Shown in pieces: positions 8,150-23,859 of a stretch of DNA of 52,620 nucleotides (the first letter of the stretch is position 1; every line of letters starts with the position of its first letter). The notes beneath the pieces were generated by a model that worked only from the letters and a program-made list of their open reading frames with translations, was not told where the DNA came from and did no database searches. Source of the stretch: Candidatus Falkowiibacteriota bacterium (GTDB taxonomy: Bacteria; Patescibacteriota; Patescibacteriia; Patescibacteriales; VMTK01). The stretch lies in assembly GCA_013791585.1 (NCBI GenBank), contig VMTK01000026.1:1-52620 (forward strand), given 5' to 3'. Made by a program: the position numbers and the translations under genes.

Positions 8150-8461
8150 TTACTGTTTAGTATTGAATTTAAGCTGTTTTTCCGGCTTTTTCGCCATCTT
8201 CCTTGCCCTAACATAATCTTCTTCTATCTCTATCTTTTTGGCTCGCGAACTTAAATAAGAATCGGTTTCCCACCAATCAATTCCCATTTCCTTAGCTTTA
8301 TCCACTGAAGCTATCATTAACCTAATTTTAATTGTGAGCAACTCCACATCAGCAAGTTTAATCTGGATGTCGCCAGCAATAACAATGCCTTTGTCTAAAA
8401 CGCGCTCTAAAATATCAGCTAAATTCGTAGCTTCTATACCATGGCTAATTTGTTCTGACAT
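8150..8461 (-). CDS. gvpJ: Gas vesicle protein GvpJ (GvpA paralogue)
   Basis: It carries the GvpA-type core: LADILERVLDKGIVIAGDIQIKLADVELLTIKIRLMIASVDKAKEMGIDWW, seen here across residues 14-64, followed by a basic tail of about 40 residues. The KAKEMGIDWW end and the length (103 residues) distinguish GvpJ from the shell protein GvpA. GvpJ is a minor component thought to help nucleate the vesicle tip. It follows the GvpS-K fusion by 44 bp, so the gene order S-K-J known from other bacterial gvp clusters is kept. Confidence 0.9.
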   Translation of the reverse strand: MSEQISHGIEATNLADILERVLDKGIVIAGDIQIKLADVELLTIKIRLMIASVDKAKEMGIDWWETDSYLSSRAKKIEIEEDYVRARKMAKKPEKQLKFNTKQ

Positions 8462-8505
8462 AAATTTTTTTTAATATTTATAATTGTTTAGTCCTAATAA
8501 TTTTA

Positions 8506-9081
8506 TTACATTAAATTGCCCAGGGGTCCTAAATCTAAATTCAATTCTTCATCTTCAATTCCAAAAACCGTTTTTAGCTCCTGCATTTTCTTCTCCATAG
8601 CTTTAAAAGTCATTCCTAACTTTTGAATTTCCGTATTAGAAAGAGATCCTTTTTGCATCCGCCTAATAACCTCTTTTTCCATTAACCTCCTTAATAACTC
8701 CACGAGAGTTAAAACTAATTTTGCTATGCCTTGTTCCGCTTTTTGGGGATTATCAGCATCAATGAGCTTGGGAATACTTGCTTCTGCCCTCTTTATTTCT
8801 TGCTCCAGCTTGGCAATATATTCTAAATCTTCCTTGGTTGGTTCTCGGCTGGGATAATAATCAGTCCCGGCGCTTTTCCAATTTTTACCGGACATTTCCT
8901 CTACTTTAGAAATAGAGGTTAGAAGAACTCTTAATCCTAAATATATAAGATCTACATCAGCTACTCTTATTGCTACATCCCCGTTTATCACAGCCCCTTT
9001 TTCAAGAACTTTATCTAAAGCATCAATAAGAGTTACTCGCTGTTCTTTTGGTTTGGATAAAATTATTAGTGTATTTGCCAT
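8506..9081 (-). CDS. GvpS/GvpA-like - GvpK fusion protein
   Basis: Residues about 15-65 are a GvpA/GvpS-type domain (VTLIDALDKVLEKGAVINGDVAIRVADVDLIYLGLRVLL). Residues about 100-191 match GvpK: IDADNPQKAEQGIAKLVLTLVELLRRLMEKEVIRRM, an LSNTEIQKLGMTF segment, and the diagnostic ending DEELNLDLGPLGNLM. The two halves are joined by a charged linker (REPTKEDLEYIAKLEQEIKR) in one open frame without any frameshift-like irregularity. In other clusters gvpS and gvpK are neighbouring separate genes, so this is a gene fusion. The start overlaps the preceding GvpF/L gene by 16 bp, indicating translational coupling. Confidence 0.88.
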   Translation of the reverse strand: MANTLIILSKPKEQRVTLIDALDKVLEKGAVINGDVAIRVADVDLIYLGLRVLLTSISKVEEMSGKNWKSAGTDYYPSREPTKEDLEYIAKLEQEIKRAEASIPKLIDADNPQKAEQGIAKLVLTLVELLRRLMEKEVIRRMQKGSLSNTEIQKLGMTFKAMEKKMQELKTVFGIEDEELNLDLGPLGNLM

Positions 9082-9914
9082 TTAATAAAATTGTAAGGCG
9101 GCCATGGGCCGCTATACTCAAAATTAAAACCTTTAGATTTATATTCTTTATTTAATTTATTAATTTCTCTTGCAAAGTCTTTTAATTTTTCTTCTGAAAT
9201 AAGAAAAATCGCATTTAAAATCATGGGCAAAGATTTACCTGTCAATTCTTTTTCTAAAATTTTACCTTTGGTTCCAGCAACCGCGCATTCTTTTAAATTT
9301 CTAAAAAAACTGTCAATATAATTTTCCAAAGCTCTGTCTGCTTCCCTTAAAACAGCATCATCTATCTGCTTTTGCATAAAATATGCCGTTCCTTCGGGAA
9401 GCAGGGCTATTTCTTTTTCTTTTTCCAGAACCACCGGACTAACTCTTTTAACTTCATTACTAAAAGTTTGGCGGTTTAAATACGCCTTTACCGACCACTC
9501 TTGTTTTCCTGATAAATTTCTTAGATTTTCTTTGAATTTAAGGTAATATGTTTTAAGCATTTCCTTTATTTTTTCTTCGCTGTTAAAAATAGCGCCGAAT
9601 TTCATGGGAATTGCCTCTTTTAATCTTTTATTTTTAAAGGGATTCTTTTCTGCTGGAAAAGGAGAAAATTGAAATTCCATCGCTTCCTCTATTACCTGCT
9701 CATGAATTTGAGCTTTTTCTTTTACCCATTTTAAATTTTCTTGCGCTTTATTTTGAATTTCTTTTGAGCTGAATTCCTTTAAAGAAACATTGCTAACCAC
9801 TGCTTCTAAATCCCTGAAAAAGACAGTAAAAACTTGACCCCTATCAATTCCTTCTGCGGAAAATTTGGAATTAGTTTTTGCTCTAACGCAATAGAGATAT
9901 AATCCCTGTTTCAT
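9066..9914 (-). CDS. Gas vesicle protein GvpF/L (copy 1)
   Basis: The 282-residue protein has the GvpF/L hallmarks: an N-terminal LYLYCV strand, a central IHEQVIEEAMEF helix followed by AIPMKFGAIFNSEEKIKEML, and the C-terminal signature FNFEYSGPWPPYNF. GvpF and GvpL are accessory proteins that bind GvpA and are thought to prevent its premature aggregation. This copy has an extra positively charged insert (PAEKNPFKNKRLKE). It is one of three GvpF/L genes in the cluster and overlaps the GvpS-K gene downstream. Which of the three is GvpF and which GvpL cannot be told from sequence alone. Confidence 0.9.
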   Translation of the reverse strand: MKQGLYLYCVRAKTNSKFSAEGIDRGQVFTVFFRDLEAVVSNVSLKEFSSKEIQNKAQENLKWVKEKAQIHEQVIEEAMEFQFSPFPAEKNPFKNKRLKEAIPMKFGAIFNSEEKIKEMLKTYYLKFKENLRNLSGKQEWSVKAYLNRQTFSNEVKRVSPVVLEKEKEIALLPEGTAYFMQKQIDDAVLREADRALENYIDSFFRNLKECAVAGTKGKILEKELTGKSLPMILNAIFLISEEKLKDFAREINKLNKEYKSKGFNFEYSGPWPPYNFIKWQIH

Positions 9915-9928
9915 AAAGTTTGAATAGC

Positions 9929-10237
9929 TTATTCTTCGCTGCTGATTCCAGTATCTACTCTTTTTCGCATTTCTTTTCGCTCATAGCCAAGTAAATTGCC
10001 TTTTGCATCTAGCCTAATGTTATAAATTCCTAACACATCCATCCCGTCCGGGATAGATTTCTTTTCAACAATTTCAACTTTAACTACCCATTCTTCGCCT
10101 TCTTTTTTAAATCCTATCCCGGCTGGCGAGGAAAAACCGGTTAAATCAGCCAGCTGTTTTTTTGCTTTCTCAACAAGCTCTTTCGGCTCAAGATTTGATT
10201 TTACATCATTAGAAATGTTCTTTATTGTTTTTGTCAT
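9929..10237 (-). CDS. gvpO: Gas vesicle protein GvpO
   Basis: The 102-residue protein matches GvpO: AKKQLADLTGF followed by a short β-rich region with GEEWVVKVEIVEKKSIPDGMDVLGIYNIRLDAKGNLLGYERKEMRKR across residues 47-95. The W..V.VE..E...P...DVL..Y...LD..G...GY.R spacing is the family signature. GvpO is an accessory protein required for vesicle formation in haloarchaea and present in several bacterial clusters. It lies 14 bp upstream of GvpF/L copy 1 and 24 bp downstream of gvpG. Confidence 0.88.
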   Translation of the reverse strand: MTKTIKNISNDVKSNLEPKELVEKAKKQLADLTGFSSPAGIGFKKEGEEWVVKVEIVEKKSIPDGMDVLGIYNIRLDAKGNLLGYERKEMRKRVDTGISSEE

Positions 10238-10261
10238 AATAATATAAATTTAATAAATTAT

Positions 10262-10495
10262 TTATTCTCCTATTTTTTCTAAAATCTCTAATCTCTCTAA
10301 AATTTCCTCTTCTTCTTTTTGATATTCTGCTTCAGTAATTTCTTCCATTTCCAAACGCATTTGAATATCCAAAAGCTCTCTCTTGAGTTTTTCAGGAGTA
10401 TCTGTTAATTCTTCTGCCACCATATCATTAATCTTATGAACAACCCCCATAAATCCTCTGGCCGGGAGCAGTAATAAATCATCTATAATAAACAT
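10262..10495 (-). CDS. gvpG: Gas vesicle protein GvpG
   Basis: The 77-residue protein shows the GvpG pattern: an N-terminal hydrophobic stretch (FIIDDLLLLPARGFMGVVHKI) followed by an acidic helical region (LKRELLDIQMRLEMEEITEAEYQKEEEEILERLE). GvpG is a small accessory protein that interacts with GvpF/L proteins and GvpA during assembly. It starts 3 bp after the ArsA gene stop, so it is translated from the same mRNA. Confidence 0.88.
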   Translation of the reverse strand: MFIIDDLLLLPARGFMGVVHKINDMVAEELTDTPEKLKRELLDIQMRLEMEEITEAEYQKEEEEILERLEILEKIGE

Positions 10496-10498
10496 AAA

Positions 10499-12508
10499 TT
10501 ATATTCCGTATAATATTTTAGAAAAGCTATGCAATGAATCAATTCCTCTAATATCATGCGGTAATAAAGGAACTAAAATTAAATTCTTCAAGGGATATTG
10601 TTTTTTAATTATACCCAGATATTTTTCTTGACCTTTTCTTTTGGCTAAACAGAAATTGCATTTGGAAGCAGGATTTATAAAATTGGCAATAATATAATTA
10701 TAATTAATATCCATGCTTTCTAAAGATCCGTCCAAATCTTCCATTTCTCTTATACCCATCTCCTCCGGAATGGTAATCATTAAAAATTCTGTTTTCGCGG
10801 AGCCAAATAAAATTTTCTGAATTTTTCTAATATCTCTGGATAAATTTACTGTTTTTTGAGCAATTCCTTCTAATTTTAATCCTTGATATTTGCGAAGTAT
10901 TTTAAAAATACTTTTAAGCCATTCTCTAACCAAGCCGGGAAGTTCTAAGAATCTAAGCAAATGGCCGGAAGCGGCTGAATCCAAAACATAAATATCATAT
11001 TTGCTCCCACCCGCCAAATCCATAACTTTTCTTAAAGCCATTAGCTCTTCAAGCCCTGGCGGAGAAAGTTCCATCAACTCTTCCATAACCTGCTGATCGT
11101 AAACCACTTCTGCTCCCGGTCCTGTAAACTTATTAAATAACTCCTTAATACTCTCTTTATATTCATCTTTAAAATCTCTAAGACTTTTTTGAGTATCTAT
11201 TTCTATGGCAAAAAGGTTATTAAAACCTCTGATAGAAACTGCTTCCGCGGCCAAGGGAATGTCTTGATCAAAAATATTGGAAAGAGCATGAGCCGGATCA
11301 GTGGTGGTAATAAGAATTTTTTTTTCTTTATGCTTTTTAGCCAGTGCCATAGCCGTAGCTGCCGCTATTGAAGTTTTGCCCACTCCTCCTTTCCCGCCGC
11401 AGATGACAAAGCTTAAATCCTTTTTTAAAAACTTTGCCATTTTGCCTTGAGGAATTTCTGGAAATTCAGGCAATTTTTTTGGCAAAATAATCTCAAACTC
11501 CTTCTCCGCGAATAAAATCCGAGCGTACTCATTTAAAGAATCTTGACCCCTAATTTCAGCGGGGAAAAGTGGCATCTTCAAAATCTGATAATCTTTTCCG
11601 CCCGAGACGGATCCGCCTTTGGCGGAAAATTTTTCTTCAATCATTTTCAGATATTTTTCTTTTTCTTTTATTCTGGAAGCGCAAAGCGAGCATTCTCCTT
11701 CAACTGTTGCCATGCGATTAGCAATAATACTTTTTACTGAAATTTTCATTATATCCAAATCTTTAACTAATTCCTCTGTCTCTAAAATACTCATTGGTTC
11801 GGGAATAGTTACTGGCACAAATTCAGTTGTTTCCTGATTTTTTAAAAGTTTTTCCACTCTTTCTATATCAGCCAAGGTCTTTGTTAAAAATTTATCACAC
11901 TCATCATTAATATATTTTCTTCTTATCCGCTTCATAATAAACCGATGTTTTGCCATCATCAGGTCTGCCGCTTTTATCCATCTTTTCATCGCTTGAGGCA
12001 GGGATAAAAGAATCTTAGTGTGCCCGGTAGGAGCGGTATCAAGAATAATCAGATCATATTCTTTTTCTAAAAGCTCAGCAATTTTAATAATAGCCATTAC
12101 TTCATCCATGCCTGGCATAGCCAGAGAAGTAAATTGTTCTATGTCCTCACTGTCAAGATAAGTTCCCCGATCAAGTAAAATTTTTATAGTTTCTGAATGT
12201 TGCTTGCGAAAATCTTCCATTAATTCTTTAGCCTCCATCTCATAAGCCCAGATATTGTCTTGAATTTTAGTAATTTTATTGCCAACCTCTACATTAAAAC
12301 TATCGCCAATGGAAGGGGCCGGATCAGTAGAAACTATTAAAATTCTTTTGGTCTTGTATTTTTGGCCTAAGTATAAAGCGGTTGCGCAAGCGCAAGTAGT
12401 TTTGCCGCTGCCACCCTTGCCGCCAAAGACAATAAACTTCAATCTGTTATTAACAAGAAACTGATTTTTTGCCCTATTAGAAATTTTTGCTGAAATTTCC
12501 TTTTTCAT
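10499..12508 (-). CDS. Tandem ArsA/Get3-type ATPase in the gas vesicle cluster
   Basis: The 669-residue protein consists of two ArsA/GET3 ATPase domains. The first has a deviant Walker A (FGGKGGSGKTT) at about residue 29 and LIILDTAPTGHT near 153. The second has GGKGGVGKTS near residue 365 and YVLDSAASGHLLR near 505. Both halves keep CxxC pairs (CSLCASR, CNFCLAKR) like the dimer-stabilising zinc site of Get3-type proteins. ArsA exports arsenite with ArsB; Get3 delivers tail-anchored proteins. No arsB, arsC or arsR is nearby, so delivery or folding of vesicle proteins is the more likely job, by inference. A palindromic element is inserted in frame at 11594-11629. Its start overlaps the upstream GvpF/L stop (ATGA, 12505-12508). 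Confidence 0.85.
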   Translation of the reverse strand: MKKEISAKISNRAKNQFLVNNRLKFIVFGGKGGSGKTTCACATALYLGQKYKTKRILIVSTDPAPSIGDSFNVEVGNKITKIQDNIWAYEMEAKELMEDFRKQHSETIKILLDRGTYLDSEDIEQFTSLAMPGMDEVMAIIKIAELLEKEYDLIILDTAPTGHTKILLSLPQAMKRWIKAADLMMAKHRFIMKRIRRKYINDECDKFLTKTLADIERVEKLLKNQETTEFVPVTIPEPMSILETEELVKDLDIMKISVKSIIANRMATVEGECSLCASRIKEKEKYLKMIEEKFSAKGGSVSGGKDYQILKMPLFPAEIRGQDSLNEYARILFAEKEFEIILPKKLPEFPEIPQGKMAKFLKKDLSFVICGGKGGVGKTSIAAATAMALAKKHKEKKILITTTDPAHALSNIFDQDIPLAAEAVSIRGFNNLFAIEIDTQKSLRDFKDEYKESIKELFNKFTGPGAEVVYDQQVMEELMELSPPGLEELMALRKVMDLAGGSKYDIYVLDSAASGHLLRFLELPGLVREWLKSIFKILRKYQGLKLEGIAQKTVNLSRDIRKIQKILFGSAKTEFLMITIPEEMGIREMEDLDGSLESMDINYNYIIANFINPASKCNFCLAKRKGQEKYLGIIKKQYPLKNLILVPLLPHDIRGIDSLHSFSKILYGI
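11594..11629. repeat. In-frame GC-rich palindrome (GGATCC centre), copy in ArsA gene
   Basis: TTTTCCGCC at the left faces GGCGGAAAA at the right around a CGGATCCG centre. It is translated as FSAKGGSVSGGKD between the CxxC region and the end of the first ATPase domain. A nearly identical palindrome, in the same reading frame and giving FSAKGGSASGGKD, is found in rpoB at 51811-51844. Confidence 0.9.
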
Positions 12509-13395
12509 ATCTTTAAATGCAATTCTACAAAATTAAAAGCAGGAATAGGGCCAATATATATAAACTTAATTCTCTTATTGTACTTTTTGATTAAAACATG
12601 CACTCTTTTATCAAACTCTCTTTCATTTTTTTTTGAAACCAAGAAAGCATAACTGAAAATCATTGAATCTCTCATCGGTTCTAAAAATCTTATCAACTCT
12701 CTTTCTTTAAACTTTACCGCTAATTCTTTTAAAGATTTCAAGAGCTCTCCGGCTTCCCTTTCCCTTTTAGAGTCAACTGCCTTTTGGATTAATTCACCTA
12801 CGCCGGCAATTCTAAATTGATGGGGATTTTTCTGGGCGTTTCTTTTTGCAATTTGAATTTCTTGATTCTCCTCAACTATTTCTTGAAAAATACTTGGCAT
12901 ATCTTTCCAAAATGCCCTAATGCCCAATTCTACTCTCCCTTCCACTATTGGAAATGTTTCTAAAAATTCTTTTCTTTTTGGCTTTAATATTTTTTCTTTA
13001 ACATCTTCCGCGCTCTTGGCCACTGTGCCAAAACGAACCGGTAAAACATCATATCCTTGTTTCATCACTTCTTCAATAACCTTTTGATGGCGGGTTAGGT
13101 GTTCTTTAATAAAAGAATACTGATCTTTTGCCGTGTCAGTGACTGCCATTGCCAATCCTCCTTTATTAATAATATATACTTCTTTTCCTTCCTGCCCCGT
13201 TAGATATTTGTTCTCTTGATTCTTTTTATTCGCTCTTGTAATATCTAACGGGGCTTGCCGCAAAATTTTAAACTTTTGGGGCTTGCTTTCTTTAATAACA
13301 CAATAAAGATATTTACCCTGATCTGAGTCTGATTGCCCCGCAGGCCTGTCATTTGGGACTCTGATTTGGGATTTTCCTTTTGCTTCAGCGGCCAT
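12505..13395 (-). CDS. Gas vesicle protein GvpF/L (copy 2)
   Basis: The protein (296 residues from ATG 13395) has GvpF/L features: GKYLYCVI near the start, LAMAVTDT, the helix LTRHQKVIEEVMKQ, DVLPVRFGTVA and the C-terminal IKFIYIGPIPAFNF. I chose ATG 13395 (MAAEAKGKSQ) because a start at 13458 would run 32 bp into the membrane-protein gene upstream. Two repeat-like inserts are visible: a Pro/Gln/Ser-rich stretch before YLYC (from CAGAGTC/CAAATC words around 13320-13375) and a 61-bp palindromic element at 13194-13254. The stop overlaps the ArsA start by 4 bp. Confidence 0.88.
   Translation of the reverse strand: MAAEAKGKSQIRVPNDRPAGQSDSDQGKYLYCVIKESKPQKFKILRQAPLDITRANKKNQENKYLTGQEGKEVYIINKGGLAMAVTDTAKDQYSFIKEHLTRHQKVIEEVMKQGYDVLPVRFGTVAKSAEDVKEKILKPKRKEFLETFPIVEGRVELGIRAFWKDMPSIFQEIVEENQEIQIAKRNAQKNPHQFRIAGVGELIQKAVDSKREREAGELLKSLKELAVKFKERELIRFLEPMRDSMIFSYAFLVSKKNEREFDKRVHVLIKKYNKRIKFIYIGPIPAFNFVELHLKI
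13194..13254. repeat. In-frame CCCCGTTAGATATT-type palindrome in GvpF/L copy 2
   Basis: Perfect 15-base arms (13194-13208 and 13240-13254, GCCCCGTTAGATATT and its complement) enclose 31 bases. The whole element is translated in frame, giving the segment LDITRANKKNQENKYLTGQ between two conserved GvpF/L strands. Related arms occur at 20048-20080 and 16231-16293. Confidence 0.85.
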
Positions 13396-13426
13396 AATTT
13401 TAATAATAATTGCTTTATAAAAATCT

Positions 13427-13771
13427 CTATTCTTGCGAAGTTGGTTTAGCCACAACAATGACCTGTTTTATAGCCACCACCAATCCGGCAGCTGCTATAA
13501 AAGCGATAAAATTTTCCAAAATTGAAGCGACTGCCAATGTTAATTTTCCAAGCTGTAAACCGCCGACTCCAATTAAAAGCAAGGTGATCACGGCCACAAG
13601 AAACGGAATGCTTTCTTTTTCTTTTACATTTAAAAATCCAACAATTAAACCTAAAACAAACAGAATAACTAATAGATACGGAATAGCGGCAAAGCCAGCC
13701 AGCACTGCAAACGCTATGCCTCCGATTAAAGCCCAGCGACCAATAGTTGTAAGATTATATTTTAATGCCAT
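13427..13771 (-). CDS. Small multi-span membrane protein, unknown function
   Basis: This 114-residue protein is almost entirely hydrophobic, with four likely helices at about residues 11-30, 31-49, 56-75 and 84-106, separated by a single charged loop (NVKEKES). The N-terminus has positive charge (MALKYN..GR) and the C-terminus ends PTSQE. I recognise no family. It sits inside the gas vesicle cluster, between the GvpF/L-J fusion and GvpF/L copy 2. If it acts with them, it may anchor assembly factors to the membrane; this is inference from location. The 163-bp gap upstream (13772-13934) contains a copy of the GGTCGAATTTTA motif and may hold an internal promoter. Confidence 0.75.
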   Translation of the reverse strand: MALKYNLTTIGRWALIGGIAFAVLAGFAAIPYLLVILFVLGLIVGFLNVKEKESIPFLVAVITLLLIGVGGLQLGKLTLAVASILENFIAFIAAAGLVVAIKQVIVVAKPTSQE

Positions 13772-13934
13772 ATTTTTGAGATATTATTTGCCCTGCATTT
13801 TTTAAGCATTAAAATGAATAGACTTGCCGCGCAATTAGTCTCGCAACGCAATTTTATAATGCGAACTCTATAAAGAGTAATGCTTAAAAGATAAGTAGGG
13901 GTTATGAATTATAATAAAATTCGACCTTTAAAAA

Positions 13935-15002
13935 TTATTTAATAATTAAAGAATTTCTTACATCTTCTTCCTTAAAAGAATATCTTTGATTCCTGTTTTC
14001 TCCAAAAAAACTGCCACAGCTTTTGCAATAACTTTTTAGAATACTATAAGCGCGAACTATTTTTTTCATTTGTTCTGCTGTTTCCTGATTATCTTGATGC
14101 TTATCCGGATGATATTGATGGGAAAGGGCATAATAAGCCTTTTTAATTTCTTCGGGACTAGCTTCCTCGCCCAGGCTCAATAATTTTCTTGCTTTATTTA
14201 TTATTTCAAAATTACCTAAACTAAGATTAATATTAACAAAACTATAGGGGGGCATTGGGCCAATATACCTAAACCTTAATTTCCCTTCGTATTTTTTACC
14301 CAATTCTTGCATTTTACTATCCAATTCAAACTCTCTGGACTTCTCTATTAAGAAAGAAAAGTTGGCTATCATGTCCTCGCTGATTAATTTATTTAAGGTG
14401 AAGTCATGAGCCATGATTCTTAAGAATGCTTCAATGTTCTTGATATTAGTTTGCTTATAAGCTTCTGCCTGCCGCTGGATTAGTCTGCCTAACTTCAATT
14501 TAAGCGGCAGACCCAGAATACTTGTTTTGACGGACAACTGCTGTCTTAGCCCCTGAATTTCTGAATTAGTGTTAACTAATTCTTCAAGCAGCTTTTTTTG
14601 ATCCCACCAGACTTGAACCGCAAACTCAACCTTGCCTGCTGTTGTTTTTAAAGCTGTTTTAAATTGAATATAAGCTTTCGCTAAAATACATTTTATTTCT
14701 TCATTATTAGGAGCAATAATCCCAAAAGCCATTGGCGCAACATTATAATCTTTCATTATTTCTTCATTCACTTGCTGGTGGATGGCAATATGCCTTGTTA
14801 GTTCTTTTTTATCTAAACGATCAAAATTAATAACCGGGGTATCTGAAACTGCCGCTGCTATATCTTGATAATTGAGAATGTTGATAACTTGATGATTAAT
14901 TCCAATATAGCTAAGGCCGCTGGCATTGGCTTGGCCGAAAGCATCGCGGGCGGCTCTTTTATCTTTATTCTGCTCAATTACGCAATAAATATATTTCCCC
15001 AT
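13935..15002 (-). CDS. GvpF/L - J-domain fusion (copy 3)
   Basis: Residues 1-265 are a GvpF/L protein: MGKYIYCVIEQ, LTRHIAIHQQVNEEIMKD, VAPMAFGIIA and the closing signature LRFRYIGPMPPYSF. Residues about 275-335 are a J domain: ARKLLSLGEEASPEEIKKAYYALSHQYHPDKHQDN, with the essential HPD tripeptide. Two Cys (YCKSCG) follow. J domains recruit and stimulate Hsp70-type ATPases. Fusion to a GvpA-binding accessory protein would bring an Hsp70-fold partner to nascent shell protein; the actin/Hsp70-fold gene 104 bp upstream is an obvious candidate, although its kinship with true DnaK is not shown. The zinc-finger half of a DnaJ protein is encoded separately at 22457-22765. Confidence 0.9.
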   Translation of the reverse strand: MGKYIYCVIEQNKDKRAARDAFGQANASGLSYIGINHQVINILNYQDIAAAVSDTPVINFDRLDKKELTRHIAIHQQVNEEIMKDYNVAPMAFGIIAPNNEEIKCILAKAYIQFKTALKTTAGKVEFAVQVWWDQKKLLEELVNTNSEIQGLRQQLSVKTSILGLPLKLKLGRLIQRQAEAYKQTNIKNIEAFLRIMAHDFTLNKLISEDMIANFSFLIEKSREFELDSKMQELGKKYEGKLRFRYIGPMPPYSFVNINLSLGNFEIINKARKLLSLGEEASPEEIKKAYYALSHQYHPDKHQDNQETAEQMKKIVRAYSILKSYCKSCGSFFGENRNQRYSFKEEDVRNSLIIK

Positions 15003-15106
15003 TTTTATCTAGTTAGAAAATTTTATTAGACTATGCCAAATTATCCATAGCAAGTATTTGCAGATATCGCGAGCAATAGCGAGCCAATATCCGCAAGAGC
15101 ATCCCA

Positions 15107-16183
15107 TTAATTTGTTCTTTTTCTATCAGCAATAGCGGCGATTAACGCTCCTTTGGCAACAGTATAAAGCGGATGCGGAGCCATCCTTACTTCCTTTACT
15201 TTTAAAGGAAAACTCGTTTTCCCAAGTATCTCTTTAAACCTTTCAATAAATCCCTGCGGATTTGCCGTACCTCCTGAAACAATTATCGGAATGGGAGTTT
15301 CAAATTCAGGAATTTTGCCCTTTTCTTCAACCTCTTTTTTTATTTGATCCAAAACATATTCAATCAGGTGATCATAATAAATAGAAAGGGCATGCTCAGT
15401 TTTAGTCATACTGCTTTCGCTCTTTTTAAGATTTAAAAAGTTTTCCTTAAAGGTAGTAATTTTGCTGATTGGCTCATTGGTAACAATGGCAACTTGTTCA
15501 TCAATCCAGTCCCCGGCTTTAGCCACGCTGAAAGAAAACACCGGCGCAGACATTAAGGATAGGCAGACATTAGCCATTCCGCCGCCAAATGATATGCCCA
15601 TGCCCGTAAAATTATCTTCTGCTAATTCAGAAAAAATTACCGCTAAACCCTCGTTCAAGGGCTTTGCTTGGTACCCCCATTTTTCAAGAAATCCTTTTAT
15701 TATATTTTGATGGTAAATATTATCAAAATCCGCGTCAATTGGAGGGCCGGGAACAGAAAAATAACAAATTTCATTTTTTTCAGCAGGCGGCTCTAAAACG
15801 CTTTTTATTATCAATTCAATAATCGGCAATGCTTCGGTTTCTTTAGCGCTAATTACTCCGCTCTTTAGCGGTCTTCTGGTGTTGCCGCCAAAAACATTAG
15901 CAAACTTCATAGCATCGCTTCCCACCACATAAATTTTATCTTGACCCAGGACATATTTGACATTACTTTTTTCTAATATCCCTTGGGTAAATTCAGAATA
16001 TTCAACATCGAAAAAAGCATCTCTTTGAGCCCTAAAACTTACCTGTGAATTTATTTTTTGAGCGCAGTAAATAAAAGCGGTGCCGACATCTAATCCTTTG
16101 CCCATTTGCGGTAAAACCAATTTATTTGTTTTTGTACGATTCTCTTTAGCCATAGAACCGCGGGCATGTTGTTGTTTTGTCAT
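15107..16183 (-). CDS. Actin/Hsp70-fold ATPase (MreB/ParM-like)
   Basis: The 358-residue protein has the motifs of the actin-Hsp70 superfamily: phosphate-1 loop GKGLDVGTAFIYCA near residue 30, phosphate-2 loop GMGISFGGGMANVCLS near 200, and the adenosine motif IPIIVSGGTANPQGF near 305. Its length and the absence of a substrate-binding domain favour an actin-like ATPase (MreB/FtsA/ParM type) over DnaK. An N-terminal stretch of about 20 residues (MTKQQHARGSMAKENRTK) precedes the fold; the ATG at residue 11 is an alternative start. It is encoded in the middle of the gas vesicle cluster. It may form filaments that place vesicles or act as an ATP-driven assembly factor. Confidence 0.8.
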   Translation of the reverse strand: MTKQQHARGSMAKENRTKTNKLVLPQMGKGLDVGTAFIYCAQKINSQVSFRAQRDAFFDVEYSEFTQGILEKSNVKYVLGQDKIYVVGSDAMKFANVFGGNTRRPLKSGVISAKETEALPIIELIIKSVLEPPAEKNEICYFSVPGPPIDADFDNIYHQNIIKGFLEKWGYQAKPLNEGLAVIFSELAEDNFTGMGISFGGGMANVCLSLMSAPVFSFSVAKAGDWIDEQVAIVTNEPISKITTFKENFLNLKKSESSMTKTEHALSIYYDHLIEYVLDQIKKEVEEKGKIPEFETPIPIIVSGGTANPQGFIERFKEILGKTSFPLKVKEVRMAPHPLYTVAKGALIAAIADRKRTN

Positions 16184-16230
16184 ACTTTTTATTTAATACT
16201 TATTTTTTCCTCTTCTTTTTCGACCTTTTC

Positions 16231-16293
16231 GCCCGGTTAAAAATTTACTATTCCTATTTATTTCTCATCTTCTCAAAATAATTTCTAACCGGG
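16231..16293. repeat. CCCGGTTA palindrome spanning a stop codon
   Basis: CCCGGTTA at 16232-16239 followed by AAAATTT faces AATTTC-TAACCGGG at 16281-16293. The layout matches the CCCCGTTA-type elements at 13194-13254 and 20048-20080, with one base changed in both arms so pairing is kept. Confidence 0.6.
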
Positions 16294-16715
16294 TTTAAAA
16301 AACAAGCCGCCCTCTCAATACTTTGGCCTAAATTTAATTTTTTCTCTTCCGGCTCAAATTTATTCTCTGGATTTTTACTGCTAACCTTTTTTGCTAAATA
16401 CTTAAAGTTATCCTCTAACGGCTTTACCTTTAATTTTTTAGGGAAATAATAAATTACTTTTTCTATATTTTTTTCTTTTTTAAAAACTTTCGGCTTTATT
16501 AAACATCTACATTCCAGTTCTTTTATTCCTTTAAAAGCGATCTTATACCAATCCCGTTTTCCTTTAATCGGCTTAATCCATCCTTTTTTAAATAAACAAT
16601 CGCAAATATAACGAATGTAATCAATGCCGAATTTTGTCTGGCTGGAAATTAATTTAATATTGGATTCTTCTTTATTTTCCCAAATTTTTTTTAAAACTTT
16701 TAATTCACTATTCAT
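16254..16715 (-). CDS. Winged-helix protein, gas vesicle cluster paralogue A
   Basis: The first ~65 residues (LKKIWENKEESNIKLISSQTKFGIDYIRYICDCLFKKGWI) look like a small winged helix-turn-helix, and are similar to the protein at 19966-20304 (EIIWDWGGEASVNIITREANISIDYARLICESL). The rest is basic and unassigned. The final NPVRNYFEKMRNK is written by one arm of a CCCGGTTA palindrome (16231-16293) that spans the stop codon, so the C-terminus may have been changed by that repeat. Its start overlaps the coiled-coil gene upstream by 8 bp. Two such wHTH paralogues suggest cluster-specific regulators or adaptors; no DNA target can be named. Confidence 0.65.
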   Translation of the reverse strand: MNSELKVLKKIWENKEESNIKLISSQTKFGIDYIRYICDCLFKKGWIKPIKGKRDWYKIAFKGIKELECRCLIKPKVFKKEKNIEKVIYYFPKKLKVKPLEDNFKYLAKKVSSKNPENKFEPEEKKLNLGQSIERAACFLNPVRNYFEKMRNK

Positions 16716-17115
16716 ATAACTTAGAAGACTTTAATTTATCTTTTGCTTGATCCAATATATCAAAATTCTCTTTTTCTGCCATTCTTAATTCATCTATAAA
16801 CTCCTTGCTTTTGCTTTGCAGCTTTTTTAATAACATTATCCTCATCTCTAAATTTTTTTCTAATTCCTTAACTTCCTGATAGGTCTTTTCTAAAGCTATT
16901 TGTTCCCGCGCTATTTCCTTTTGATGCTCATTTATTTTTTTAATTAAATCAATGTTCTCTTCTTTTACTTTTGAATTAATTTGTTGCGCTTCTTCCTTTA
17001 AGGGAGAAAGCGGTTTTCTGCTCATAGCAAACTCTATCTGGGGCGCTTTGTTTAATTCTTCCCCTGCCTCCTTTAATCCTTCTATGATGCTTTTGGGGCT
17101 TGCATTTGATTCCAT
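16708..17115 (-). CDS. Coiled-coil protein of the gas vesicle cluster
   Basis: The 135-residue protein is dominated by a long heptad-rich helix ([61 protein letters not shown] spans residues 47-108) after a less ordered, Ala/Pro-containing N-terminus. I recognise no family. It overlaps the 3' end of the CDC48 gene by 34 bp and the start of the wHTH gene by 8 bp, so all three are translationally coupled. A structural or adaptor role is possible; GvpC-like proteins in this cluster are also helical, but the 51-residue repeat found in them is absent here. Confidence 0.7.
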
Positions 17116-19292
17116 ATTATTTTAAAATGATTATTAGTAATTTTAAATTTTTGGCAGTTTTTTAAACTTTTTAACCCGACCGCTTCACTGCCTGCCCGCA
17201 AAGCCTTAGTAAGCGGGCGCGAATCATCGCGGATAAATTTAACAAATTCTCTAATAGCTAAAATTGAAGCTTGCTTGCAAATGGCTTCAATATCAGATCC
17301 TACTAATCCTTTGCTTTCTTTAGCTAAATTTTCTAAATTCACATCTTTAGCCAATGGCTTGCCTCTTGTATGAATTTTAAATATCTCCAACCTTGTTTTC
17401 CCATCCGGCTTTGGCACCTCTAAAAGAAAATCAAAGCGGCCGGTTCGGCGCAATGCAGGGTCAATCAAATCCAAGCGGTTGGTAGCTCCAAGGATTACAA
17501 CCCCTTTAAGCTCTTCAATGCCATCAAGTTCAGTTAAAAATTGGCTTACTACTCTCTGAGTTACAGAGGAGTCAACGTTTTGGCTGCGAGCAGGAACCAA
17601 ACTGTCCAGCTCATCAAAAAAAACAATGCAAGGACTGGCTTGCTTAGCTTTTTTAAAAACTTCCCTTACTGCTTTTTCAGATTCTCCTATGTATTTTGAT
17701 AAAAGCTCAGGACCCTTGACAGAAATAAAATTTACGCCGCATTCAGACGCTACTGCTTTGGCTATTAAAGTCTTGCCTGTTCCGGGAGGGCCGTAAAGCA
17801 AAATTCCTTTAGACGGACTGGTTTTGGTATAATCAAAAAGTTTGCTATATTTCAATGGCCACTCAATGGTTTCTTTTAAGGTCTGCTTTATTTGTTCCAA
17901 ACCTCCCACATCCTTCCACCTAACATCAGGAATTTCAGTAAAAATTTCTCTTAAAGCTGACGGCTCAACTTCTTTTAATGCTTCTATAAAATAATCCGCG
18001 GTTACTTCCATCTCTAAAAGTTTTTTATAAGGAATATATTCTTTAGCAAATTCAATCTCCGGCATGATTTTTCGCAGAGCCGACATGGCTGCCTCTCTAA
18101 CCAAAGCTTCTAAGTCTGCCCCCACAAAGCCATGGGTTATTTCAGATAGCTTGTCTAAATTAACATCTTCTCCCAGGGGCATGCCTCTAGTATAAATTTC
18201 CAATATTTCTTTTCTGCCATTTTTATCAGGAATACTAATGGCAATCTCTCTATCAAATCGGCCCGGTCTTCGCAATGCCGGATCCAGGGTATTGGGAATA
18301 TTAGTGATTCCAATAACTACCAAATTGCCCCTTGATTCCAAGCCATCCATTAAAGCCAGCAATTGGGCAACCACTCTTCTTTCCACTTGTTTTTCTCCGC
18401 CCATATCCTCTCTTTTAGGGGCAATGCCGTCAATTTCATCTATAACTAAAATGGCAGGGGCATTAGCTTGGGCATCCTCAAATACTTCTCTTAATCTTGC
18501 TTCTGACTCCCCATAAAATTTGCCCATGATTTCAGGCCCGGAAATAGAAGTAAAATAAGCATCAGTTTCGTTAGCTACCGCTCTGGCAATCAAAGTTTTG
18601 CCGCAACCAGGGGGTCCGTATAATAAAACTCCCTTGGGAGGATCTATGCCTAATCTCTCAAAAACCTCGGGATATTTTAAGGGAAGTTCAATCATCTCTC
18701 TAATCCTGCCGATTTCTTTTTTAAGTCCTCCGATGTCTTCATAAGTGACTCCTACTCCCTGCTTGTCTTTTGCTTCTCCCTTGATCTTGATTAAAGTAGC
18801 GGGAGTAATCAAAACAGCTCCTTGAGGGTCAGTAGCTTCCACTAAAAAATCCTGGGATTTACTGCCAAAAAAGGTTACTCTTATTTTATTTCCTTTTAAA
18901 ACCGGGGTGCCGTCTAATATTTTGGCCAAATATTCACTACTTTCTTGTTTTTTAAAAGATCCGTCTAAACTTAAAGGAGATAAAACTAAAGTATTAGCTT
19001 TCTCATAAGAAGTCTTTTGAATTTCAACCTTTTCATCTAAACCTGTCTTAAGGTTGTCTCGCGCTATGCCATCTATTTGAACAATCTCTTTGCCGCGATC
19101 TTCTGAATAAGCGGGCATTAATTTGGCTACTACTTCTTTACCCTCCACTTTTAACCTAATTATATCTCCTGCATCTGCCTGAATTTTTGCAAAATATTCA
19201 GGGTCTACTCTGGCTATTGCCCTGCCCGCGTCCTTGCTCCGGGCTTCTGCTATCTTAAGAACTATTGATTTTGTTTGCGCTTTTTTAATCAT
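17082..19292 (-). CDS. CDC48/VCP-type double AAA+ ATPase
   Basis: The 736-residue protein has the CDC48 layout: an N-terminal double-psi β-barrel (residues about 5-90, [18 protein letters not shown]), then D1 with Walker A GPPGCGKT, Walker [15 protein letters not shown] and GRFDREI, and D2 with [23 protein letters not shown] and [10 protein letters not shown]. Such hexamers unfold or extract proteins from complexes and are commoner in archaea than in bacteria. Being mid-cluster, it may remodel vesicle proteins (inference). The last ~45 residues after [11 protein letters not shown] are abnormal: they read through a GCCCGC/GCGGGC palindrome (17194-17218) and AT-rich spacer-like DNA ([15 protein letters not shown]) and overlap the next gene by 34 bp, so the original C-terminus was probably lost. 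Confidence 0.92.
17194..17218. repeat. GCCCGC/GCGGGC palindrome at the CDC48 3' end
   Basis: GCCCGC at 17194-17199 pairs with GCGGGC at 17213-17218 around AAAGCCTTAGTAA. It is read in frame as part of [13 protein letters not shown] near the end of the CDC48 gene, where the family sequence is no longer recognisable. Confidence 0.5.
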
Positions 19293-19389
19293 AAATCATG
19301 AAACAATCCTTCGGCGTATTTATATTCGCATGCAGACATAATTTGCGGCATTGGGATTATATCTGTGTGAATTAACCCGCTAACTTTTT

Positions 19390-19956
19390 CTAAAATATTT
19401 TTTTTAACTTCACTTTTAATATCCCGTTTTTAAAATCTATTTTACGGGACTGGAAATCTACGCTGTCCGGCAGTAAAATCTCTTTGGCATATTTCCTGTC
19501 TTGATTACCGGCTTCAATTATAAGAATGTCTTTCTTGAGATCAAGTTTAATGGCTTTTTCATCAATGCCGGGAAGTTCAGCGATAATTAAAATGTGATCC
19601 TTCTCGTTAAAAACATCAACTATCGGCTCTCTATTTTCCACAACCTCAACTTCCTTTTTACCGGCTTTTTTTTCAACAGGCCGAATATTGCCAAAAGTTT
19701 GCACTCGCGGCCGGCCGCCAATACCGCTTCTTATTGAAAATCCATAAACCCCTTTAGCATCCTTTCCTTTTCCCAAACCCCTGATTTTTCCTTCTTTTCT
19801 AATCTCTCCCCCGGCTTCTTCAACTTTTTCCGCTAAATCAATAAATTTCCCCAATCCCTTAATTAATCCTCCAACCAAAGGCAAATCTTCAAGCATCTCT
19901 AATTCTTCCCTTGCCTGATCAGTGTTCTTTTTTTCACTTTTTTTATATTTAACCAT
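19390..19956 (-). CDS. gvpH: GvpH, Hsp20-like gas vesicle protein
   Basis: The 188-residue protein has a GvpH N-terminal region (LEDLPLVGGLIKGLGKFIDLAEKVEEAGGEI and the FSIRSGIGG segment) followed by an α-crystallin/Hsp20-type domain at about residues 105-188 (EPIVDVFNEKDHILIIAELPGIDEKAIKLDL, FKNGILKVKLKK). GvpH is found in haloarchaeal and some bacterial gvp clusters, where it helps stabilise other Gvp proteins. It follows the wHTH gene by 9 bp and precedes CDC48 by 97 bp. Together with J-domain, zinc-finger and ATPase genes it adds to the chaperone set of this cluster. Confidence 0.87.
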   Translation of the reverse strand: MVKYKKSEKKNTDQAREELEMLEDLPLVGGLIKGLGKFIDLAEKVEEAGGEIRKEGKIRGLGKGKDAKGVYGFSIRSGIGGRPRVQTFGNIRPVEKKAGKKEVEVVENREPIVDVFNEKDHILIIAELPGIDEKAIKLDLKKDILIIEAGNQDRKYAKEILLPDSVDFQSRKIDFKNGILKVKLKKIF

Positions 19957-19965
19957 ACCCTAAAA

Positions 19966-20304
19966 TCAATAGTTTAGAATTAATTTTCCTTTTTTATCTT
20001 TACCTAAACCAAACCTACTCAGCCTTTCAGGAAGAACAATTTTTCTTGCCCCGTTAAAAAATTTTTGACTTCTAACGAGGTGAAGATTCCGGTCTTTTTT
20101 TCTTGCGGCTATTAACTTTCCTTTATCTTTTATATTGCACAATTTGGAGCGCGAAAAATCAATACAACTTTCCCTTGCCAAGCTCTCGCAAATAAGCCGG
20201 GCATAATCAATACTAATGTTCGCTTCTCTGGTAATAATATTAACTGAAGCCTCTCCTCCCCAATCCCAAATTATCTCTAAAACTCTTTGTTCATTTGTAG
20301 TCAT
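19966..20304 (-). CDS. Winged-helix protein, gas vesicle cluster paralogue B
   Basis: This 112-residue protein starts with a winged-helix-like region (RVLEIIWDWGGEASVNIITREANISIDYARLICESLARESCI) that aligns with the start of the gene at 16254-16715. Its C-terminal end, GKDKKGKLILNY, resembles that of the next protein upstream (GGKKKGKIVLGY at 20315-20662). A CCCCGTTA-type palindrome (20048-20080) is translated within it as part of VRSQKFFNGARKIV. The function is unknown; a DNA-binding or protein-adaptor role is possible. Confidence 0.65.
   Translation of the reverse strand: MTTNEQRVLEIIWDWGGEASVNIITREANISIDYARLICESLARESCIDFSRSKLCNIKDKGKLIAARKKDRNLHLVRSQKFFNGARKIVLPERLSRFGLGKDKKGKLILNY
20048..20080. 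repeat. In-frame CCCCGTTA palindrome
   Basis: GCCCCGTTA at 20048-20056 faces TAACGAGG at 20073-20080 around AAAAATTTTTGACTTC. The arms carry one mismatch. The element belongs with those at 13194-13254 and 16231-16293, and lies inside a coding frame. Confidence 0.65.
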
Positions 20305-20314
20305 AAATCTAATG

Positions 20315-20662
20315 CTAATATCCTAATACTATCTTTCCTTTTTTCTTCCCGCCGACATTTGAGCTGCGGCCGCTTCCTCCTTCTGCCGCCCCTCGTATCT
20401 TAACTGCTGTTTGAGTAGCTTTGGCAAGAAGTTTGTTCATTTCTTTTTCCACATCTTCCAATCTTGTTTGCAGTTGTACTCTTCTTTTTCTTGCCCTTTT
20501 TAACTCTCCTGTTAATCTGTCTTTTTCATTCCTTCGCATATACAAATCTAAAATAGCCGTAGTGGGAAGGTCTGGCTTGCCGCTTTTCTTCACTGCTCCG
20601 GTGTATGTCCTTAAATCATGAAGACTATTAACATCTTGAAACGTTTTTATTGATGTTTTCAT
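20315..20662 (-). CDS. Small coiled-coil protein next to gvpN
   Basis: The 115-residue protein has an N-terminal segment (TFQDVNSLHDLRTYTGAVKKSGKPDLPTTAILDLY), a strongly basic/acidic coiled coil (EKDRLTGELKRARKRRVQLQTRLEDVEKEMNKLL) and a Gly/Ser-rich linker ending in KKKGKIVLGY. The same type of ending occurs in the neighbouring protein at 19966-20304. I do not recognise a named Gvp family. It lies 9 bp downstream of gvpN and 10 bp upstream of the next gene, so it is co-transcribed with them. Confidence 0.7.
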   Translation of the reverse strand: MKTSIKTFQDVNSLHDLRTYTGAVKKSGKPDLPTTAILDLYMRRNEKDRLTGELKRARKRRVQLQTRLEDVEKEMNKLLAKATQTAVKIRGAAEGGSGRSSNVGGKKKGKIVLGY

Positions 20663-20671
20663 AATTTTTAG

Positions 20672-21601
20672 TTAACAGTATTTTTTAATTAAATCTTTAA
20701 CCAAATTTTCTATTTCTTTGCGGCGCGGCGACCATGGGCTGCGAGTAGTCTGTGAAACTAATACATCTTTAGCTAATTGTTTAAATTGCGAGTCAGAAGC
20801 CGAAACCTTTCCTTTGATAGCTCCTAAAACCTTGCCAAGAATAATACAACTGCGGACAGTCGGAGGAAATTCACAAGGATTGCTTGTTCTCATTCCTCTT
20901 ACTATATCAACGATTTTTTCCGCGTCTTCCTTGGGAATCCCTGATTTAGCCTGGGTTATTGCAACCTCGGTTTTTCTGTCAAAATACTCTAAATCCATTG
21001 TTACCATTCTATCCCTTAAAGCATCCTGCGCTTTATGAGTGCCGGCATATTCTTCAGGATTAGAAGTAAAGATTGCGCAAAAATCAGGATGAACTTTTAA
21101 GTAGTGGCGCTCATCTCCGTCTCTTTTCATCGGCAGGTCCATTACTTTCTCTTGTAAAATTGAAAGTAAAATATTATTAGCTTCCGGTTTTGATCTGGTA
21201 AACTCATCATATATTAAAGTAAAGCCATGCTTGCAGGCGATAGTCAAGCGATTATCCATCCAGCGCTTAGACATATCTTGTTCTACTTTTAGGACGCTGG
21301 AAATAAAATTATCCTTTAAATATCTGTAGTGATATCCCTGCTCGCCTCCTACTAAATCAGAAGTTTTATGTTCTTCGTCGCCATGAAACAAAACCACCGG
21401 CCTGCCAATCTTGCTTGCCACATGCAGAGCCATGGTTGTTTTACCGGTTCCCGTAGGACCTCTAAAATGAACCGGGATGCCAACTTTAAAATAATTTAAA
21501 GCTCGACTGGTAATCCGCTTTACATACGGAGTTTCAATAAAGTCAGCCATTGGCCGCGCCTCAATAACCGCTTGCTCTTCTTCTGTTGATAAATAAGGCA
21601 T
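20672..21601 (-). CDS. gvpN: Gas vesicle AAA+ ATPase GvpN
   Basis: GvpN is a MoxR-type AAA+ ATPase needed for vesicle growth. Visible motifs: Walker A FRGPTGTGKTTMAL, the GvpN segment HGDEEHKTSDLVGGEQGYHY, Walker B TLIYDEFTRSKPEANN, sensor-1 AIFTSNPEEYAG, and the arginine-finger region DALRDRM. I chose ATG 21601 (MPYLSTEEEQAV, 309 residues); an in-frame TTG four codons upstream is less likely. A spacer of about 110 bp separates it from the GvpC-like gene upstream and contains an AAATTTGACCTTG motif. Confidence 0.95.
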   Translation of the reverse strand: MPYLSTEEEQAVIEARPMADFIETPYVKRITSRALNYFKVGIPVHFRGPTGTGKTTMALHVASKIGRPVVLFHGDEEHKTSDLVGGEQGYHYRYLKDNFISSVLKVEQDMSKRWMDNRLTIACKHGFTLIYDEFTRSKPEANNILLSILQEKVMDLPMKRDGDERHYLKVHPDFCAIFTSNPEEYAGTHKAQDALRDRMVTMDLEYFDRKTEVAITQAKSGIPKEDAEKIVDIVRGMRTSNPCEFPPTVRSCIILGKVLGAIKGKVSASDSQFKQLAKDVLVSQTTRSPWSPRRKEIENLVKDLIKKYC

Positions 21602-21711
21602 ATAATAATCCAATAAAATTTAGATGATTTTAGATAGAATAAATTTGACCTTGAATGTATCAAACTTGGCATCTTTCCTGCCAAAGTTTTAGAATTTGGT
21701 TATTGAGACTT

Positions 21712-22278
21712 TTATTTCTTTCCATGCTTATGATGTTCTTTTTTGTGATGTTTATGATGTTCTTCTGCTTCTACTTTTACTTCCCCCTCAGCTACAGTTG
21801 ATCCTCTTTTCTGTAAATCAGCCCAGTGTCCAGCAGCTTCTTTTCGCTCTGCTTTATAATCAGCAAGCAAATGCCTTACTGATCTTCTTATCGCTTCAAT
21901 ACCTGCAATAATATCTTTCATTATTGCCCTAAAACCAGCCATTCTTATTTCCTCACTCTTCGCCAGAAAATCTTTAAGCTCATGAGCTAATTCTTTCATC
22001 TCTTTGTCAAATTGAGCAAGTAGGTCAGCAGTATCTCCTTTAATATCCTTTACCCGCGCTTGGATAGCTCTTATCATTACCTCAAAATCTTTTTTTCTGA
22101 TTTCTTCACTCTTCGCCAAAAAATCTTTAAGATCCCTGGCCATATCTTTTAATTCTCCCTGAAATTGAGCAATTAACTTATGAGTATCTTCTTTAACGTC
22201 CTTTACATATCTTGTCCTGTCTCTGTGGCCAACTTTAATTTCAGCAACTAAATTTTTTAGTTCTTGCGCGTAAGCCAT
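21712..22278 (-). CDS. GvpC-like repeat protein 1 with His-rich tail
   Basis: The 188-residue protein is all-helical and contains two clear 51-residue repeats: LIAQFQGELKDMARDLKDFL and LLAQFDKEMKELAHELKDFL open the two units, and each contains AKSEEIR followed by a DF/GF-containing helix. A third partial unit starts LLADYKAERKEAAGHW. The tail is His/Lys-rich (HHKHHKKEHHKHGKK). GvpC is the helical repeat protein that clamps the outside of the vesicle shell, classically with 33-residue repeats. The longer repeat here and the adjacency to gvpN and gvpA suggest a GvpC analogue. The His tail could bind metal ions. Confidence 0.75.
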   Translation of the reverse strand: MAYAQELKNLVAEIKVGHRDRTRYVKDVKEDTHKLIAQFQGELKDMARDLKDFLAKSEEIRKKDFEVMIRAIQARVKDIKGDTADLLAQFDKEMKELAHELKDFLAKSEEIRMAGFRAIMKDIIAGIEAIRRSVRHLLADYKAERKEAAGHWADLQKRGSTVAEGEVKVEAEEHHKHHKKEHHKHGKK

Positions 22279-22456
22279 AAAGTTTAAAATAGTTAATACC
22301 CAATTTCCTTAATTCTGCCTTTTGTTAGCCAAAGCGGAATTTTCGCTCTGAAAGAATATTTGGAAATTAAGCATTAATTATTGGGTTAATAAAAAAATTA
22401 TTAATTAAAAGAAGGAAATTTCCTCCTCCGACCTTTGGTTGAAAAAAATTAAATAA

Positions 22457-22765
22457 TTAGTAATTTCCAATTTCCGGAAGTCCAGTGTCAGGATTTAATC
22501 CTTTGGGTCCTTTTCTTCCATCTTTTGGCACTATTCCTTTTCCTTTGCAAACTGAACATGGCAATCTGTGATGCGCAAAAATTCCTGTTCCTTTGCAAGC
22601 CCCGCATGTCTCGTGAGGAATATCAGCAATAGCAACCTTGCCTTTGCCCCAGCATACTTGGCAATTAGACATTTTTGAGGGGATGCCAAAAGGATCTTTT
22701 CCTTTCCCTTTACAAAAAGCGCAGGTAATTTCTTTATATCTTACTGTTTTTATTCTTTTTGCCAT
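22457..22765 (-). CDS. Stand-alone DnaJ-type zinc-finger protein
   Basis: The 102-residue protein contains four CxxCxGxG-type modules: CAFCKGKG, CQVCWGKG, CGACKGTG and CSVCKGKG, the cysteine-rich zinc domain of DnaJ, with no J domain and no C-terminal substrate-binding domains. It ends in PDTGLPEIGNY. Such domains bind two zinc ions and help hold unfolded polypeptides. It is flanked by the two GvpC-like genes, and the matching J domain is fused to GvpF/L at 13935-15002. That distribution suggests a DnaJ split over two vesicle-specific proteins; the partnership is inferred. Confidence 0.85.
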   Translation of the reverse strand: MAKRIKTVRYKEITCAFCKGKGKDPFGIPSKMSNCQVCWGKGKVAIADIPHETCGACKGTGIFAHHRLPCSVCKGKGIVPKDGRKGPKGLNPDTGLPEIGNY

Positions 22766-22814
22766 AAATTTTTGACTTTACCTGTATATATAAGTTATTC
22801 GCTACGCAAACCCG

Positions 22815-22896
22815 CCATTTGAATGTGTCCTCCCGCTCCTAGCGAGGGGCGGGATAGCGGGACTGCCGAAAGCATAACAGCGGGACATGCGAATGG
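22815..22896. repeat. MITE-like GC-rich inverted repeat
   Basis: An 82-bp element with outer arms CCATTTGAATGTGTCC / GGGACATGCGAATGG (imperfect) and an inner TCCCGC..GCGGGA stem (22831-22854) lies in the spacer between the zinc-finger gene and GvpC-like protein 2. It is far richer in GC than the flanking DNA. Confidence 0.65.
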
Positions 22897-22918
22897 TAAT
22901 ATTGAAATTCCTTTACTT

Positions 22919-23464: not shown

Positions 23465-23581
23465 AGAAGTAGTTTTAGGACATGCTTTAAGTTTTTTAGG
23501 ATAATTATCCTTGCAGAAGGGTATAAAACGCTTCTGCGCAATTTAAAGGATGCCCCAATTTCTCCTTTAAAATAGCGGCTC

Positions 23582-23785
23582 TTAGGCAGTAGCGGTTAGG
23601 CCCACTGCCTCTGCATACTTTAACCAAGTTTCAACAGAAGCAACTACTGCTCTTACCTCTACTGCTAGAAGCTCAATTCCGACTAATGATACTCTTACCC
23701 AAGCGTCAATTACAACGCCTTTGTCAAGAATTCTATCAATTACTTCCACTAAGCTTGAACTGGACATTGATTTTTCTACAGCCAT
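23582..23785 (-). CDS. gvpA: Major gas vesicle shell protein GvpA
   Basis: GvpA forms the ribs of the gas-filled shell. The 67-residue protein matches the highly conserved family nearly end to end: [23 protein letters not shown], then [22 protein letters not shown] and [18 protein letters not shown]. The usual start MAVEK corresponds to ATG 23785; a second in-frame ATG at 23800 would add MKIKD. It is the first gene of the cluster, followed by a GvpC-like gene. A single gvpA copy is present. Upstream, 23801-24000 contains the motif TAAAATTCGACCTTT (reverse GGTCGAATTTTA) at 23860-23874, which also occurs at 13915-13929, but no clear -35/-10 pair. Confidence 0.97.
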
Positions 23786-23859
23786 ATCTTTTATTTTCAT
23801 TCAGTCAAGCCAAAGCTAAATAATATGAAATGACTGGATGAAATTTATTAATAGTTTAT

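Follow-up and report, generated by a model that had tools for sequence, protein, structure and literature searches.

A J domain at the C-terminus of the gas-vesicle protein GvpF in about a dozen bacterial phyla and its possible link to Hsp70

An unsolved point of gas-vesicle assembly is how the very hydrophobic shell protein GvpA stays soluble and joins the wall. The J domain is the standard hook for Hsp70 chaperones, with HPD as the Hsp70-contact motif, and the locus described here raises the question of what such a domain does at the end of a GvpF protein. The window, i.e., the whole stretch of DNA that was analysed, comprises 52,620 nucleotides and originates from a Candidatus Falkowiibacteriota bacterium with a genome of 1.34 Mb, 98% complete. 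It contains a single gas-vesicle cluster on the minus strand, at approximately 8150-23800, which holds both gvpF-J and a separate zinc-finger gene (Table 1). A first-pass annotation of the same DNA had placed a J domain with HPD at the end of a GvpF/L protein and four CxxCxGxG modules in a gene of their own, and had interpreted the two as one DnaJ divided between two vesicle proteins. Both assignments were borne out, while the division was not, as described below.

GvpF-J and its gas-vesicle cluster

Residues 2-257 of GvpF-J correspond to the GvpL/GvpF domain (PF06386, E 4.3e-57, 194 bits versus a cut-off of 23.6), and residues 273-324 to the J domain (PF00226, E 6e-15, 55.5 bits versus a cut-off of 27.8). 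The J domain region extends from approximately residue 264 to 330, with HPD intact at 298-300, and is followed by a conserved C-terminal tail, ..YSFKEEDVRNSLIIK. The AlphaFold2 model, made from an alignment with 31 relatives, has a mean pLDDT of 88.6 and predicts three J helices, at 265-274, 283-297, and 306-330, with HPD in the loop between helices II and III and a short ordered tail. The GvpF part of the model matched the fold of 6l5d and 4qsg with Z-scores of approximately 21-22 (6l5d_A, Z 21.9, 233 residues). The J part of the model matched 5nro_B, the DnaK-bound J domain of DnaJ, over 52 columns with rmsd 1.0 and 36% identity.

Two further GvpF/L paralogues in the cluster are without a J domain, and the double-domain ArsA ATPase is of a kind already known from gvp clusters (PMC2963123). 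The fusion of a GvpA-type domain and GvpK in one ORF recurs in the sister genus as well as in other loci. A small hydrophobic, likely membrane protein at 13427-13771 gave no Pfam match; it is kept in the gvp cluster of the sister genus (L036:9571-9912). The Volactin-family gene is kept in the gvp clusters of Patescibacteria, of some Omnitrophota, and of Saganbacteria.

Table 1. Features of the gas-vesicle cluster in the window, with positions counted from its first nucleotide.
Feature	Positions	Strand	Basis or remark
GvpA-type (GvpJ/M) minor shell protein	8150..8461	-	PF00741, E 2.4e-18
GvpA-type + GvpK fusion	8506..9081	-	PF00741 + PF05121
GvpL-type paralogue without J domain	9066..9914	-	PF06386, E 2e-54; tree
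GvpO	9929..10237	-	PF05800, E 7.6e-20
GvpG-like protein	10262..10495	-	Position and conservation
Double-domain ArsA ATPase of gvp clusters	10499..12508	-	PF02374, E 2.9e-134
GvpF paralogue without J domain	12505..13458	-	PF06386, E 2e-54; tree
GvpF-J	13935..15002	-	355 aa; Pfam, AF2, structure matches, alignment
Volactin-family actin-like ATPase	15107..16183	-	PF25216, E 2e-95
CDC48-type double AAA+ ATPase with CDC48_N domain	17082..19292	-	Pfam; gene order
Hsp20 small heat-shock protein (GvpH-like position)	19390..19956	-	
GvpN-like AAA+ ATPase	20672..21613	-	Position; in all near-complete clusters; Octadecabacter has an annotated gvpN in the same place
Stand-alone CxxCxGxG zinc-finger protein, type 1	22457..22765	-	102 aa, four modules
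GvpA, main shell protein, presumed client	23582..23800	-	PF00741, E 1.8e-16

Distribution and origin of the fusion

Genome contigs were scanned with a two-sequence alignment as the query, which gave 37 loci, 32 of them with GvpF and a C-terminal J domain. Besides the window, these 32 contigs spread over about 10-12 phyla, many of the contigs being metagenome bins whose phylum names are given as labelled: Patescibacteria, Desulfobacterota/Myxococcota, Pseudomonadota, Planctomycetota, Nitrospinota, Nitrospirota, Omnitrophota, Actinomycetota, Bacteroidota, Atribacterota, and Saganbacteria. Contigs from Patescibacteria/Parcubacteria carry the closest named relatives of the window fusion. One of the 32 contigs is from Polaribacter filamentus ATCC 700397, a cultivated organism; in addition to these contigs, the fusion is present on the complete plasmid pOA238_160 of Octadecabacter arcticus 238 (L156:13947-15029). 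The public annotation names the Octadecabacter protein only as “GvpL/GvpF family gas vesicle protein,” the J domain being missed. Many transposases flank the gvp cluster of this plasmid, which suggests that the cluster is mobile. Among the fusion loci seen, none lay outside a gvp cluster, and J domain and tail alone, without GvpF, were found in one relative.

The fusion is frequent among gvp-bearing genomes but not present in all of them. GvpF was found in just two of the 111 genomes of the host's order. Judged by the extent of the match along the profile, an approach by which fusions in incomplete bins may be hidden, the fusion was present in six of the eight gvp-bearing Omnitrophota genomes (sample of 285) and in 12 of the 32 gvp-bearing Desulfobacterota genomes (sample of 395), the other 20 having no J domain on any GvpF. 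Nor was a J domain found on GvpF in the gvp clusters of Streptomyces, Nostoc, and Rhodococcus plasmids. Given that gvp clusters without a J-bearing GvpF are numerous, recruitment of DnaK via GvpF is not a universal need.

In the tree of GvpF domains the J-bearing proteins were placed on one side of one branch, corresponding to a single gain or loss versus a mean of 25 after shuffling, the support for this branch being weak (58/23). Because one branch splits them off, a single ancient fusion event fits as the simplest reading of the sequences. The tree of J domains, built on 110 columns, was weakly resolved, and GvpF-J needs two changes in it.

Possible kin of the J module were seen in Omnitrophota, where free-standing J proteins of approximately 105 aa are found in dozens of the 285 genomes (L103-L123). 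They match the fusion profile at 245-338, i.e., through pre-helix, J domain, and tail, whereas DnaJs match at 261-317 only, and for this reason the fused module resembles the small J-protein family more than a DnaJ fragment. The small proteins share a YC..Y.YSFKEKDV tail with the fusion, their own tail being YRYSFKEKDV..HLKRFYDGWWGDL (..YRYSFKEKDV..HLKRFYDGWW..). The match covers pre-helix, J domain, and SFKEKDV tail, but the small proteins are without a GvpF domain and their last 20 residues or so differ. The genes beside them encode a methyltransferase and an Fe-S P-loop (MinD/NifH-like) ATPase.

The single relative with J domain and tail alone, G029, has an orphan ORF directly after a tRNA-Gly gene (L037:7131-7514). 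Its homology to gvpF-J sets in precisely where the GvpF domain stops, and homology to the patescibacterial gvpF-J is present at the DNA level. Neither GvpA nor GvpF was detected in the G029 genome, which is 77% complete. We considered the orphan as a decayed relic and rejected this, as the frame is open, HPD and tail are intact, and dN/dS is approximately 0.2, a value that is not branch-specific; the gene looks maintained rather than decaying.

The Hsp70-contact surface, the host DnaK and the zinc-finger protein

The surface residues for Hsp70 contact, to which the first-pass annotation had drawn attention, are kept in part. Every one of the 31 aligned fusions has HPD, as does the Octadecabacter protein, and among the fusion loci a J-bearing GvpF lacking HPD did not occur. 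The position of R22 is K or R in 27 of the 31, that of Y25 is Y, F, or H in 30, and that of F47 is F or M in 30/31. The other part of the surface is altered: the positions of K26 and R27 are basic in just 11 of 31 fusions each (Y and A, respectively, in the window protein), helix II has a net charge from -1 to +3 versus +4 in both E. coli DnaJ and the host DnaJ, and there is no helix IV with its QKR. These features agree with a J domain that works, though its binding may be weaker.

In the host genome, a full DnaK adjoins a complete DnaJ on contig C14, outside the gas-vesicle cluster. This DnaK keeps the J-docking signature EVRRIINEPTAAA, located by the motif positions of E. coli DnaK, and the linker VLLLDVTPL. 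HSP70 was also present in seven of seven further genomes tested. No PF00012 (Hsp70) match was found in the contig of the window (C26), and no DnaK relative in any J-fusion locus; with no Hsp70 encoded in the cluster, the housekeeping DnaK is therefore the expected partner of the J domain. The host has a second HSP70-like gene besides DnaK (G000:C19:5266-6345, L031), with an open frame of 839 aa, which could be an alternative partner. The actin-like ATPase next to gvpF-J was considered as an Hsp70 and rejected, as it matches Volactin (PF25216) and gave no PF00012 match.

The zinc-finger protein matched the DnaJ central domain (PF00684) with E 4e-7 and 30.6 bits, just under the cut-off of 32.7. 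Six CxxC modules are found in almost all of its relatives in gvp clusters, which fall into two paralogous types. The window protein belongs to type 1, and its modules 5-6 are decayed, with the cysteines lost. The model of the zinc finger reached a pLDDT of 77 and gave weak structural matches to anti-TRAP (3ld0), BSD2 (6ekb, Z 2.6), and the DnaJ central domain. Of 24 genomes tested, 15 had gvp genes or GvpF matches, and 12 of these contained stand-alone members; the nine others contained none.

Readings of the fusion and comparison with known systems

In the systems studied so far, GvpF is the principal partner of GvpA and is regarded as its chaperone (PMC7688916, PMC11445434). We consider it probable that GvpF-J belongs to the class C-type J proteins with a dedicated client and links shell proteins of GvpA type, bound by its GvpF part, to the housekeeping DnaK. 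The GvpF part would bind the hydrophobic GvpA or GvpA-like minor shell proteins, and the J domain would dock on the ordinary DnaK of the cell and trigger ATP hydrolysis. DnaK would capture the shell protein or pull it off GvpF, and would keep it assembly-competent before its entry into the growing wall. Both the stimulation of DnaK by the J domain and the role of GvpA as client are inferred. Because GvpF carries a fused J domain in about a dozen phyla, participation of Hsp70 in building gas vesicles is suggested. The Hsp70-type step implied in the first-pass annotation is supported by an invariant HPD, an ancient-looking fusion that was seen in gvp clusters alone, and DnaK in every genome tested.

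Assembly and disassembly are not separated by sequence alone, and the step in question may be loading, release, or clearance. In disassembly or quality control, DnaK would be recruited in an auxilin-like manner and act with the CDC48-type AAA and Hsp20, so that GvpF/L complexes are stripped, misassembled shell protein is cleared, or vesicles are dismantled. We regard such a role, with any of these targets, as rather unlikely. A CDC48-type AAA is indeed present in 30 of the 33 J-fusion contigs, usually immediately upstream of gvpF-J and with Hsp20 close by, but the complete plasmid cluster of Octadecabacter has the J fusion without CDC48, and the Prolixibacteraceae locus L069 has no CDC48 within 10 kb. 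The CDC48, Hsp20, and ArsA neighbours are a local proteostasis kit. Neither CDC48, ArsA, nor Volactin is an obligate partner of GvpF-J, since the Octadecabacter cluster has the fusion without all three. The J domain could also be an Hsp70-independent scaffold, i.e., a helical docking module for accessory Gvp proteins. The missing helix IV and the reduced basicity of helix II would suit such a module, and J-fold subunits of large complexes have known structures (mitoribosome mL77, radial spoke protein 16); however, HPD is invariant over about a dozen phyla in an alignment with a mean column identity of 31%, and we hold the scaffold to be improbable.

Two further readings are very doubtful. The J domain might act on another ATPase of the cluster, either the CDC48-type AAA or Volactin, which has an actin fold like the nucleotide-binding domain of Hsp70. 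The genes of both are near neighbours in the window, but Volactin is found in only eight of the 33 J-fusion contigs, neither is present in the Octadecabacter cluster, and established J domains work through Hsp70-type partners. As their co-distribution with the J fusion is not strict, both were rejected as partners, and we give this reading hardly any credence. The same low credence applies to a split DnaJ, where GvpF-J and the CxxCxGxG protein would replace one DnaJ in trans, with the same Hsp70 and client. The likeness of the zinc finger to the DnaJ central domain and the restriction of stand-alone zinc fingers to gvp-bearing genomes, among those tested, speak for it, as does the location of both genes in one cluster in the window. 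A sister-genus genome also keeps both in one gas-vesicle cluster, and for that reason their co-occurrence is not considered as chance. However, 10 of the 22 near-complete J-fusion clusters lack the zinc finger. In Desulfobacterota it was found in three of 12 genomes with the fusion versus nine of 20 without it (Fisher p = 0.45), by which the pairing was rejected. Furthermore, the zinc-finger family is built on six modules rather than four, a whole DnaJ lies next to DnaK elsewhere in the host genome, and the fused J domain is closer to the small tail-sharing J proteins than to a DnaJ fragment. The division of one DnaJ between two vesicle proteins is thus largely refuted as an obligate pair. The zinc finger is best seen as an independent, optional, gvp-specific, and probably client-binding factor.

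Extending the coupling of GvpF-bound shell protein to DnaK beyond this locus, we give about even chances to a wider proposal: that a large share of the gas-vesicle systems of bacteria, spread across about a dozen phyla, loads or hands over shell protein by a dedicated Hsp70 cycle. This cycle would proceed via one ancient GvpF-J fusion, with a J and tail module from an unnamed family of small J proteins, and with the independent, gvp-specific six-module zinc finger in addition. Each of the domains is already known; new are their combination, breadth, and conservation. In the open-access literature searched, we found no description of either GvpF-J or the zinc finger with six modules, and mention elsewhere or in domain databases is possible. 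Castillo and Saier (2010), who reported on the gvp clusters of Polaribacter irgensii and Pelodictyon, listed Hsp20, ArsA, and more than one copy of L/F there but mention no J domain. With the J domain hard-wired to GvpF, HPD provides a direct, mutable handle on the involvement of Hsp70, and the presence of the fusion in the cultivated P. filamentus and O. arcticus makes a test feasible. The expression of gas vesicles as ultrasound reporters may benefit as well.

With anti-TRAP and the stand-alone zinc-finger chaperones of DnaJ type, BSD2 and ZnJ2, the zinc-finger protein has in common CxxCxGxG modules without a J domain, but most of its relatives have six modules and lie in gvp clusters, and the structural match (6ekb, 3ld0) is too weak for a claim of membership. 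The likeness to DnaJ, a class A Hsp40, consists of a J domain with HPD and a separate zinc finger that resembles the DnaJ central domain. In contrast to DnaJ, the two are here unlinked and independently distributed genes, the zinc finger is normally six-module, and GvpF-J has no G/F region, no C-terminal substrate domains, and no zinc finger in its chain. GvpF-J shares with the GvpF/GvpL family, including GvpF of Microcystis and Anabaena (4qsg, 6l5d), the fold of aa 1-260, the PF06386 match, and the gvp context, whereas the solved structures stop after the GvpF domain and approximately 95 more residues, J domain and conserved tail, follow here. As in class C-type J proteins, the J domain is placed on a client-specific domain, with neither a G/F region nor a zinc finger in the chain; GvpF-J differs from them in that its client-binding part is a gas-vesicle protein, the J domain is near the C-terminus, and helix IV is missing.
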